DNA from: Phycisphaerales bacterium
GTDB lineage: Bacteria > Planctomycetota > Phycisphaerae > UBA1845
Assembly: GCA_020852275.1 (NCBI GenBank)
Contig: JADZBE010000022.1
Coordinates: 124,001-188,000, forward strand
DNA: 64,000 bases
Direction of reading: 5' to 3'
Part shown: one piece after another, positions 6,540 through 61,718 of the stretch
Position numbering within the stretch: position 1 is the first letter of the stretch
How the letters are laid out: each line of letters starts with the position of its first letter
Program-made: the position numbers and the translations under genes
Notes under the pieces: generated by a model
What the model was told of the DNA's origin: nothing
Seen by the model: the letters and a program-made list of their open reading frames with translations, nothing else
Databases searched by the model: none

Positions 6540-6675
6540 GTCACGGCGCGCAGGCGGGGGTCCAGTCAGCGCAGCAGAACCGCTGGATTCGTGCCACTTC
6601 GCACGCCACCGGCTGGATTCCCGCCTGCGCGGGAATGACGGGGCTGGATTCCCGCCTGCGCGGGAATGACGAGCG
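6540..6675 (-). repeat. BIME-like dispersed element, minus orientation
   Basis: A full copy in reverse orientation with two tandem head modules (GGCTGGATTCCCGCC...GGGAATGACG) at its right end. With hairpin copies B (6471) and A (6913), it fills most of the 769-bp space between the PEGA gene and the GspE-like gene. The remainder (6680-7080) is low-complexity GGCGGAC-rich sequence with a lone TATAAA at 6810. Confidence 0.88.
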
Positions 6676-23758: not shown

Positions 23759-23897
23759 GGACGATCGCTCCTCATCCGCTCGCGGTGCGCATGTCGACGC
23801 TCGGACGCTTCTTCAAGACCCGCTTTGCGGCACGCGCAGCGCTCCGTGAGATTGGAAAGACCGCGCGGGCTGAAGCCCGCGGCTCGCCTTCACTCAC

Positions 23898-23988
23898 CAT
23901 TCGCCATTCACCATTCGGCATTCGGCATTCCGCATTCGGCATTCGGCATTCGCCATTCGCCATTCGCCCTTCGCCCTTCGCCCTTCAC
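23898..23988. repeat. Heptamer tandem array (CATTCGC)n, 13 units
   Basis: Thirteen 7-bp units, from CATTCGC and CATTCGG variants to CCTTCGC. The last unit overlaps the stop codon of the Gfo/Idh/MocA gene, whose stop (TGA on the minus strand) is at 23985-23987. Confidence 0.95.
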
Positions 23989-54175: not shown

Positions 54176-54289
54176 CGGATCGCGCGCAGCGAAGTCGAAG
54201 GTTGCGCCAAGCACCCCCGTCGCCGGCATTCGCGCAGACAGGACGAGCAGGTCGTCCAGGTGTGGGACGGCTGTATGGAGGCCTGCACA

Positions 54290-54571
54290 GGTTGGAAACC
54301 TGTGCTACACCCACCGGTTGGAAACCGGTGCCACAGCGACCGGTTGGAAACCGGTGCCACAGCGACCGGTTGGAAACCGGCGCCACAGACACCGATTTGG
54401 TAACCTGTACCACAGCCGCCGGTTGGAAACCGGTGCCACAGACACCGATTTGGTAATTTGTACCACAGCCGCCGGTTGGAAGCCGGTGCCACAGCCGCCG
54501 GTTGGAAACCGGTGCCACAGCCGCCGGTTGGAAACCGGTGCCACAGCCGCCGGTTGGAAACCGGTGCCACA
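54290..54571. repeat. 26-bp tandem palindromic repeat array, 11 units
   Basis: Units of 26 bp (two are 27) are centred on GGTTGGAAACCGGTGCCAC. Starts are at 54290, 54316, 54342, 54368, 54394, 54421, 54447, 54474, 54500, 54526 and 54552. Most units can form an ACCGGTT-GGA-AACCGGT hairpin. The first changes both arms (ACAGG / CCTGT). Two units (54394, 54447) carry GATTTGG instead. Confidence 0.95.
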
Positions 54572-55373: not shown

Positions 55374-55505
55374 GGATGAACTCCTGATTGCAGAGGTTGG
55401 CGGGATTGAGCCGCCCATCACGGCTCGCGTAGGTGCGAAGGGTAACCTCGGGCGGGTTCCGGGCCAAGTGCCCGCTCGTTTGCCCGGCGCGAGGGCGGAT
55501 GTCGG

Positions 55506-55590
55506 GGTTCAGGGTTCAGGGTTCAGGGTTCAGGGTTCGGGGTTCGGGGTTCGGGGTCCGGGGTTCAGGGCTAAGGGTCTGGGTGCAGGG
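55506..55590. repeat. Heptamer tandem array (GGTTCAG)n, about 12 units
   Basis: Four exact GGTTCAG units, three GGTTCGG units, then degenerate units to about 55590. The unit matches that of the array at 31452. Confidence 0.95.
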
Positions 55591-55616
55591 TTCGGCGCTG
55601 CGGCGTCAGTACACGT

Positions 55617-59227: not shown

Positions 59228-59473
59228 TCAGGACTCCGCTTCAAAGGCGTAGCCACAGTGAGCGCAGTACTTCGCGTATCCCGGGCTGAACTGCAGGCAT
59301 CGCGGACAGTTGCGCGACGCCGTGCCCGAGGCCTCCCCCGGCGTCGGCGGCGCCGGCTTCCCCCCGCGGTCCGCGCGATCGCGACGTGCGGAGAGAATCA
59401 CCAGGGCAATGCCGACCACGCCGGCCGCGAGGCATCCGATCATCAGGATTAAAGTCATCGGAGTGGTGAACAT
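59228..59473 (-). CDS. Small membrane protein with zinc ribbon, 81 aa
   Basis: One membrane helix (MTLILMIGCLAAGVVGIALV) is followed by a Pro/Gly linker and a C-terminal zinc ribbon: CPRCLQFSPGYAKYCAHCGY (CxxC-x10-CxxC). This type often sits in operons with membrane proteins of unknown function. It is the first gene of the SPFH operon, 63 bp before the first SPFH gene, and may bind those proteins. The ATG at 59471-59473 has AGGAGG nine bases upstream. Confidence 0.8.
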   Translation of the reverse strand: MFTTPMTLILMIGCLAAGVVGIALVILSARRDRADRGGKPAPPTPGEASGTASRNCPRCLQFSPGYAKYCAHCGYAFEAES

Positions 59474-59810
59474 GACCGTCCCTCCTCCCCGTGGGGACAT
59501 TCTCCTCTTTTTGAATATACGCGATAGGGGACCGATCCTTGGATATAAATCGGCGCGCGGTTTGGAAGGGGGTGAGCCGGGCTCGCCGGAAATCGGCGCT
59601 GACGGGGGGTTTCCTGCTCAGCAACCTTGAGTTGTAGGTGAAAGTCGGCCCGACCGCGGCTCAAAAGCACAGGCGCCGGATGGGCAAGGTGGTGGGTAGC
59701 CCGTCGCTCCGCGACGGGACTCCGCTCCCGCCTGGGCCAAACAGCGATGAAGAAAGGGCTACCATCTGAAGATTCAGTGCTATCCGGATTTGCACCGCTG
59801 CTGACAACCA

Positions 59811-59836
59811 CACGGGTCCGCTGCTGCGGACCCGTG
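59811..59836. repeat. Hairpin repeat family A, copy 5
   Basis: Perfect 11-bp stem with TGCT loop, followed by CCACGCGCC as at 11603. It lies in the 755-bp space between the SPFH operon and the WaaP-like kinase gene. Confidence 0.9.
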
Positions 59837-59915
59837 CCACGCGCCACGAGTCCTTCACTCTGCGTTTCCATTGAGGGCTGAAGCGGTCCGCGATGCGACC
59901 CGGCTTGAGGAGCAA

Positions 59916-60000
59916 CCGAGCAGTCAGAACTTGAGGGACATCCGAGAGTTCAGAATTTGAGGGACAACCGAGAGGTCGGAACATGTCGGACAATCGAGCG
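59916..60000. repeat. 26-bp tandem repeats, resembling IS21-family ends
   Basis: CCGAGAG ... CAGAA ... TTGAGGGACA-type units start at 59916, 59942, 59968 and (partial) 59994, exactly 26 bp apart. On the minus strand they read GATTGTCCGACATGTTCCGA and similar. This recalls the multiple terminal repeats of IS21-family elements. No transposase gene is near, so it would be a remnant. Confidence 0.6.
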
Positions 60001-60001
60001 G

Positions 60002-60066
60002 AAAAAAAGGAGGTGCCTCGCCCGCCAGTGCGTTTCCGCACTGGGCCCCCCGGGAACGAGGCACCT
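60002..60066 (-). terminator. Intrinsic terminator forming most of the small RNA
   Basis: The 10-bp outer stem and GNRA-capped inner stem are followed on the minus strand by seven T (complement of 60002-60008). Confidence 0.75.
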
Positions 60067-60075
60067 TAGGTCCGA
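60002..60075 (-). ncRNA. Candidate small RNA, about 74 nt, ending in an intrinsic terminator
   Basis: On the minus strand a promoter at 60082-60110 would start transcription near 60075. The RNA folds into one composite hairpin: AGGTGCCTCG / CGAGGCACCT (60057-60066 with 60011-60020), an inner CCCG/CGGG stem, and CCAGTGCG-GAAA-CGCACTGG capped by a GNRA tetraloop. It ends in a run of seven T (60002-60008). No frame of useful length is present. It lies between the SPFH operon and the WaaP-like kinase gene. Confidence 0.65.
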
Positions 60076-60081
60076 GGCTCG

Positions 60082-60110
60082 TTTATACCTCATCAGTCCG
60101 CGGAGATCAA
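60082..60110 (-). promoter_or_regulatory. Sigma70-like promoter of the small RNA
   Basis: On the minus strand, TTGATC (60105-60110) and TATAAA (60082-60087) are separated by exactly 17 bp. Confidence 0.7.
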
Positions 60111-60228
60111 GCCCCCCCGATCCGCTTTTTCTTGAGCATTCCCACGGCGAGGCGAGAATGCGGGCAGGCGGCGGTCTTTCGCCGCTCGGCCGTGAAATGC
60201 GCAGGACGCCGTGCGCCAAGGGACGCGG

Positions 60229-61128
60229 ATGAACAGGCTGATGCCGACTCCGGATGAGATCGTTGACGCGATTCAAGCAGAAGACGCCTCCTCCGCGGGA
60301 CGCCTTTGGATCCATCCGCGATTCCGGACCCTCCTCGACCAGGCCGGGTGGAGCCGACCGCAGCGACTGCTCGACCCGACGGTGGGCGGCGAAATGAGCA
60401 AGCCGGGGCTGACGCGGTGGCGGCGGCGGGCGCGCATCGCGCTGGCTGACGATGCCGGACGCGAGGTCGTGTTCTTCCTGAAGCAGTACGTCGCGCCGCC
60501 GCCGCCCGCGCGACGTGCTGCCCTGCGTTTGTGCCCTGATGCAGGAACGCTCGCCGGAGCGGAGTGGTGCTGGATGCAGCGGCTGGCGGCGGACGGCGTG
60601 GGTTGCGCCGAACCGGCCGCACTGGCGGAGCGCCTTGCGGGCGGGGTCGAGCAGGCGAGCGCTCTTCTGATCGCGGCGACGCCGGGCATTTCGCTGGAGC
60701 AGTGGTTCGCGCGGCGGGTTGCAGGCGAGGATGCGCACCGCCGCGACGTCCGCCGCGCCCTCCCCGGGCTGGCAGCGCTGATCGCCCGATTCCACGACCG
60801 AGGCTATGTTCATCGCGACCTTTACGCCTGCCACGTCTTCATCGACGGGGCCGCCGCGCTTCCTGCGTTCCGCCTGATCGACCTCGCCCGCGTGTTCAAG
60901 CCGCGCTGGCTGCGGCAGCGCTGGATCGTCAAGGACCTTGCGGCGCTGCACTATTCCTGCCCCGCAGACCGCGTCACACGGACGGACCGACTGCGATGGC
61001 TGAAGCTCTACCGCGGCGTCCGCAGGCTCGGACCCGTCGAACGGCGCCTGATCCGCCGGATTGAAAGCAAAGCCGCGCGCATCGCCCGCCACGACCGCGG
61101 GCGCGTCCCGCGCGCGCCTGCCTCTTGA
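60229..61128 (+). CDS. WaaP/InaA-family lipopolysaccharide-type kinase
   Basis: The 299-residue protein has the features of the Kdo/WaaP kinase family, which phosphorylate sugars of the lipopolysaccharide core. It has an N-terminal glycine loop (TVGGEMSKPGLTR), a Lys region VVFFLKQYV, the catalytic loop FHDRGYVHRDLYACHVFI with HRD, and the metal-binding FRLIDLARV. A basic C-terminus follows. Its substrate is not known. The ATG at 60229 follows AAGGGA at short spacing. It is a single gene, and a weak terminator follows near 61193. Confidence 0.9.
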   Translation: MNRLMPTPDEIVDAIQAEDASSAGRLWIHPRFRTLLDQAGWSRPQRLLDPTVGGEMSKPGLTRWRRRARIALADDAGREVVFFLKQYVAPPPPARRAALRLCPDAGTLAGAEWCWMQRLAADGVGCAEPAALAERLAGGVEQASALLIAATPGISLEQWFARRVAGEDAHRRDVRRALPGLAALIARFHDRGYVHRDLYACHVFIDGAAALPAFRLIDLARVFKPRWLRQRWIVKDLAALHYSCPADRVTRTDRLRWLKLYRGVRRLGPVERRLIRRIESKAARIARHDRGRVPRAPAS

Positions 61129-61217: not shown

Positions 61218-61336
61218 TTCATGCTGCGAAAAGTCGGGCGATGGGACGCGCCTTCGCCGGCTCGCCTTGCACGCATGCCCGCTCGGCGACCTGCGCATTC
61301 ACATCTGTGAAATGTGAGCAATCTACGGCCGGGGGG

Positions 61337-61365
61337 CATGCTCCCGCTGTACTCAGCGTAAGCAT
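61337..61365. repeat. Hairpin repeat family B, copy 3
   Basis: CATGCTCCCGCTG-TACT-CAGCGTAAGCATG, stem of 13 bp with two mismatches, preceded by GGGGGG. Confidence 0.85.
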
Positions 61366-61448
61366 GTTGTCCAGCGCGTAAGCATGTCACGAAGGCAGAC
61401 TGCCATCCTGAGCCTGTCCGCAGGGTCCCTCCATTCTCGCCAGGGTGG

Positions 61449-61477
61449 CATGCTCTCGCTGTACTCAGCGTGAGCAT
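61449..61477. repeat. Hairpin repeat family B, copy 4
   Basis: CATGCTCTCGCTG-TACT-CAGCGTGAGCATG, one mismatch, preceded by AGGGTGG as at 6471. Confidence 0.88.
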
Positions 61478-61718
61478 GCGTCGACGGAGCTTGCCTGCCG
61501 GTCGAGCACGAAGGGACGTGTTGATCGCCGAAGCCGGGGAATGGGGATCACTGAAAGGCCCGGACCCGCGCATTCACCTCTGCGAAATCTGTGCAATCTG
61601 CGGATAGCCTGTCTTCGAAACAGTCAGCGACACTCCTGATTTCGATTTCTCGTATCCCTCAGGCGCCTGTGATGGATGAGGCGGTCTCGTGAAAGACCCT
61701 CGCGCGTCGGCGTTCCGC

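Follow-up and report, generated by a model that had tools for sequence, protein, structure and literature searches.

On the minus strand of the window (the whole 64-kb stretch of Phycisphaerales DNA analysed here), a promoter-like sequence leads directly into a terminator-like hairpin, and the question raised by this locus is what such an arrangement encodes. A -35 box (TTGATC, 60110-60105) is separated by 17 nt from a -10 box (TATAAA, 60087-60082), which is followed by a short leader, a hairpin (60065-60012) capped by a GAAA loop of the GNRA type, and seven T (60008-60002), all facing the same direction as an earlier note on this DNA had described. The note also stated that no minus-strand gene lies between promoter and terminator, and this is correct: the flanking genes (59228-59500 on the minus strand, 60211-61128 on the plus strand) are divergent, and therefore no gene reads into the hairpin. 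The features of the locus are as follows.

60105-60110, minus strand: -35 box TTGATC, recognised in the sequence by the TTGA-N19-TATAA pattern; a TTG-type box is similarly placed in the other copies described below
60082-60087, minus strand: -10 box TATAAA, after a 17-nt spacer and 16 nt before the main stem
60002-60075, minus strand: predicted small RNA of about 74 nt, its start placed 7 nt past the -10 box
60002-60008, minus strand: run of seven T, tail of an intrinsic terminator; a T-run is present in every copy
60211-61128, plus strand: divergent neighbour, Kdo/WaaP-like kinase (Pfam PF06293, E 3e-21)
59228-59500, minus strand: downstream neighbour, small protein with a weak UPF0547 match (Pfam PF10571, E 6.5e-5, under the curated cut-off)
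59904-59998, no strand assigned: 26-bp tandem repeats adjoining the 3' end of the RNA, three aligned copies, outside the RNA family

With 0.01 expected, the window has two occurrences of the pattern TTGA-N19-TATAA; a promoter, a strong hairpin and T6 are found together in it once, and in none of 60 first-order Markov randomisations. A strict consensus promoter scan does not list the window's promoter, because TTGATC/TATAAA falls below its thresholds. It is from these elements that we infer transcription and its start site. Immediately upstream of the -35 box, a C run on the plus strand (60111-60119) corresponds to a G-tract on the minus strand; G-tracts also precede TTGA in two other copies of the source genome (C25 and C17) and in three congeners, and A-tracts are seen in several copies. 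The G-tract could be an upstream promoter element.

The earlier note had proposed a covariance search; together with a DNA search, it gives a family of ten members in four genomes. Type 1 consists of seven copies, scoring 84–95 bits with the covariance model: four at unlinked sites in the source genome (C22, C25, C17 and C39), and the other three each in a different congeneric genome (two Phycisphaerae bacterium genomes and Planctomycetota bacterium BroJett003). The C25 and C17 copies and those of the three congeners were found by DNA search, while the C39 copy was added by the covariance model. Type 2 is represented by one copy in each of the three congeners, near-identical to one another, and is absent from the source genome. 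It features a differing outer helix around the same core, CACG-GGGGGC-ACGGCGA, and then CCACTTTTTT; a promoter, TTGACG-17-GATAGT (TTGACC in one copy), precedes the hairpin. Type 2 scores 19.3 bits with the type-1 model, which was the first sign of it, and 47 bits with a model of the core, a score that is not independent proof of kinship because type 2 was in the training set. The two types are likely, though not proven, to descend from a common ancestor. Every copy has promoter-like boxes ahead of it at about equal distance, and in all seven members of type 1 a -10-like hexamer lies about 15–18 nt upstream of the hairpin.

The 34-position core model reports exactly these ten members in the genus. 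In 36 other genomes it gave nothing convincing, the weak matches being without the promoter-hairpin-T-run layout; in a class-wide search, scores beyond the genus were weak throughout, and a strict-pattern scan of about 85,000 species matched the genus alone. Distant members outside the genus were therefore rejected as candidates, since the weak matches inspected resemble other hairpins or are without promoter and T-run. The narrowness of the family means that there has been limited time for conservation to act.

The sequence 60002-60110 folds at -47.7 kcal/mol (z -2.5), and 3 of 200 shuffles fold as well. In order, the hairpin has stems of 9, 4 and 8 bp; a 2-nt bulge separates the first two, the 6-nt GGGGGC bulge lies between the second and the third, and the GAAA loop caps the last. 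RNAalifold analysis of the seven type-1 sequences recovers this hairpin together with a further 3-bp helix between leader and tail (GGR/YCC). The earlier description of three stems filling nearly the whole RNA thus holds, with the leader-tail helix (P0) as the element it had missed. The structural elements are listed below.

60071-60073 with 60009-60011, minus strand: helix P0, leader GGA with UCC; GGR:YCC covaries (GC/AU and AU/GC/GU) in 7 of 7 copies
60057-60065, minus strand: 5' arm of P1, GGUGCCUCG, pairing with 60012-60020; 100% paired in the seven copies, with a compensatory change of C-G to U-A
60051-60054, minus strand: 5' arm of P2, CCCG, pairing with 60021-60024; in C39 a C-G pair is replaced by U-A, a compensatory change
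60045-60050, minus strand: unpaired bulge GGGGGC, consensus RGGGGC, common to both types; proposed functional site
60025-60044, minus strand: P3, an 8-bp hairpin with the GAAA loop at 60033-60036; four compensatory pairs, loop sequence not conserved

The counterpart of P2 in type 2 is CACG/CGUG. The earlier note had suggested that compensatory changes be sought in homologous sites, and in type 1 they are found at 7 of the 24 pairs (both partners altered, 11 cells). None of 500 shuffles reaches as high a count, and controls with a slid structure give at most one pair. Because the sequences are few and related, this covariation is strong yet not overwhelming. In type 1 the 3' arm is continuous, and every sizeable bulge protrudes from the 5' arm. 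According to the partition function the G-tract is mostly unpaired, although its last G and the C may pair in some copies.

The strand of the gene product can be judged from the same alignment. Several positions in type 1 retain G-U pairs, and in six of the seven type-1 copies the fold of the sense strand is 5–10 kcal/mol better than that of the complementary strand, which together indicate an RNA on the minus-equivalent strand. This folding advantage is not seen in the window's own copy, where either strand folds equally well, or in type 2. Homology between most of the unlinked copies spans 63–81 bp, corresponding to the RNA alone; since it generally stops at the RNA borders, the RNA itself is the conserved entity. 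The exception is the C25/C17 pair, which shares 231 bp (L038:8183-8413 and L039:8767-8999). This block contains a further promoter in a distal position, TTGATT-18-TAAAAT, in which TGC stands ahead of the -10 box (extended -10), so that these two copies may also give a longer transcript; the shared sequence suggests a later duplication. Given these features, the locus very probably is a small-RNA gene of one kind or another.

The surroundings of the copies bear on how such a gene might work. The three congeners have the gene order around the RNA copy in common, and the copies in the source genome differ in their neighbours: an AAA ATPase with a SpoIIE/FHA phosphatase, a DNA methylase, or an aldehyde dehydrogenase-like protein with a glycosyltransferase 9. 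An orthologous position of the window copy in the congeners was considered and rejected, the kinase neighbourhood not being conserved there. The copies would be better suited by a trans-acting product than by a cis-acting one. It is also conceivable, if improbable, that the hairpin is an intrinsic terminator or transcriptional insulator preceded by a promoter that arose by chance, and that the RNA has no function of its own. The shape is that of a textbook terminator, and in C25 the hairpin could serve to terminate the upstream AAA gene. However, divergent genes flank the hairpin in C22, C17 and C39, and in the congeners the genes on both sides are oriented opposite to it, so that in most copies the hairpin terminates no gene. 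Moreover, the bulge and the leader are conserved and neither is needed by a terminator, and the even spacing of the promoter-like boxes across all copies does not suit a chance promoter.

A DNA element, such as a mobile or repetitive hairpin (REP or MITE-like, or an IS-linked end), would explain why the copies are dispersed, why tandem repeats lie alongside the window copy and why the C25/C17 pair has so much sequence in common. The earlier note had suspected an IS21-like link, by which the RNA could have moved with an element. The 26-bp repeats that it placed next to the downstream end of the RNA are indeed present, but they occur once in the genome, and no such repeats lie beside the other RNA copies. 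A profile search for IstB gave weak partial matches only, in frames of 322–513 aa; in this search for IstB no convincing IS21 gene came to light, and the genome has no further copies of the repeat. With no shared flanks past the RNA in most copies either, the IS21-like carrier was rejected. More generally, a DNA element is at odds with a total of four copies in the genome, with the kept G-U pairs and the better folding of one strand, and with the conserved gene order around the congener copies, and we regard it as very improbable. A plasmid or phage origin was also rejected: no plasmid or phage record matches, and no viral contig has the pattern.

The window contains several other repeats. In an intergenic array at 54286-54571, a palindromic unit of 26 bp, CACCGGTTGGAAACCGGTGCCACAGC, is repeated eleven times in tandem. 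REP-like 31-bp tandem repeats, ATTCCCGC...GCGGGAAT, are located at 2677-2767 and 6611-6671, and heptamer arrays (CCATTCG and GGGTTCA) at 23897-23986 and 55505-55593. Downstream of the kinase gene, a dispersed palindromic repeat, GCATGCTC-CGCTGTACTCAGCG-GAGCATG, is seen at 61336-61372 and 61449-61478.

A covariance search of the window against Rfam 15 at the gathering score reports a tRNA only; the two matches within 59800-60300 are at chance level and neither lies on the hairpin. The RNA is similar to trans-acting bacterial sRNAs (Rfam 'Gene; sRNA') in being intergenic, 70–80 nt long and without a partner gene, with a sigma-70-like promoter and an intrinsic terminator; the co-orientation of these two elements is judged from sequence and pattern only, and the structure is kept by compensatory changes in the homologues. 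In contrast with typical members of that class, it has no Rfam match, and its proposed seed is a bulge within the terminator hairpin rather than a separate single-stranded region. Hfq was detected in none of the four genomes, the control genomes being positive, which sets the RNA apart from Hfq-dependent sRNAs. Like 6S RNA it forms one long hairpin with bulges; unlike 6S RNA it is 74 nt in length, has no large central bubble and no Rfam match, and occurs in several unlinked copies. The Rhodopirellula-1 motif has been listed for Planctomycetes, with no Rfam number (Weinberg 2010, PMC2864571). Literature searches yielded no described Planctomycetota RNA of such kind. Judged against Rfam, phage and plasmid records and the literature, the family is new and narrow, and it belongs to a kind already known.

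The earlier proposal of a short regulatory or decoy RNA stands in so far as homologues, covariation and similarly placed promoters give good support to a short, stand-alone structured RNA, which may be a regulator or a decoy. At the level of sequence comparison, the copies demonstrate a gene family with a defined structure, strand and conserved bulge. The only sequence common to both types is the unpaired G-tract (R)GGGGC in the 5'-arm bulge, with its flanking pairs; as it is kept in both types while the outer helices are replaced, it is the most likely working site, and the bulge is probably functional.

One explanation for this conservation is that an RNA-binding protein recognises the G-rich bulge together with the pairs that flank it, and that the RNA titrates or modulates this protein. 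This is the main rival explanation, and a rather unlikely one, which nevertheless has several points in its favour. Conservation reaches both adjoining helices in both types (base pair C39-G56 invariant, CRGYG), conserved base pairs beside the bulge would suit a protein equally well, and titration would fit the presence of several copies in a genome. All four genomes encode CsrA, in two or three copies each, and the RNA is like CsrB/RsmY-type CsrA decoys in being intergenic and multi-copy in genomes that contain CsrA. However, the GGA motif of CsrA is not kept: leaders in the source genome read GGA and those of the congeners GGG, GGA is found near the loop in two copies only, and the alignment contains neither the repeated nor the conserved GGA loops of such decoys. 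A CsrA decoy was rejected on this ground, and the copies show no link to any further candidate protein.

We prefer base pairing of the bulge with mRNA. The RNA would be transcribed from its own promoter to its intrinsic terminator, giving roughly 74 nt that form almost entirely one hairpin, in which two GC-rich helices would hold the (R)GGGGC bulge single-stranded. The bulge could then serve as a preformed seed for GCCCC-type stretches in target mRNAs, acting in trans and independently of Hfq. The chances that G4–5C pairs with C-rich stretches of mRNA appear about even. Base pairing with mRNAs and any direction of regulation are inferred, the pairing solely from the exposure and conservation of the G-tract; a G-rich seed of 5–6 nt is short and unselective. 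For the statement as a whole (a stand-alone gene for an sRNA of about 74 nt, in a genus-specific multi-copy family, acting through seed pairing of the G-bulge with mRNAs) the balance is likewise near even.

Two other modes of action were considered and rejected. The tail CACCUCCUUU resembles the 3' end of 16S rRNA, which would suggest an anti-Shine-Dalgarno mimic, but it is CCCCUUU in the C25 and C17 copies and different again in type 2, and it is engaged in pairing within P0. Kissing through the palindromic CCCGGG is not tenable, as the palindrome is broken in C17, C39 and type 2.

Small RNAs are barely described beyond the well-studied phyla. According to a review, most sRNA families are from Proteobacteria and Terrabacteria, and many unseen ones are expected elsewhere (PMC9029176). 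No existing concept is overturned by this locus, which illustrates that a promoter, a hairpin and a T-run noticed by eye in raw sequence can lead to a real RNA gene. We tentatively consider that a terminator hairpin here displays a fixed G-tract, terminator and binding site being one structure whose outer helices have been swapped, in an Hfq-less, lineage-specific family. What is gained is a defined family with a structure, in four Planctomycetota genomes with no recognisable Hfq, and with a single testable site.
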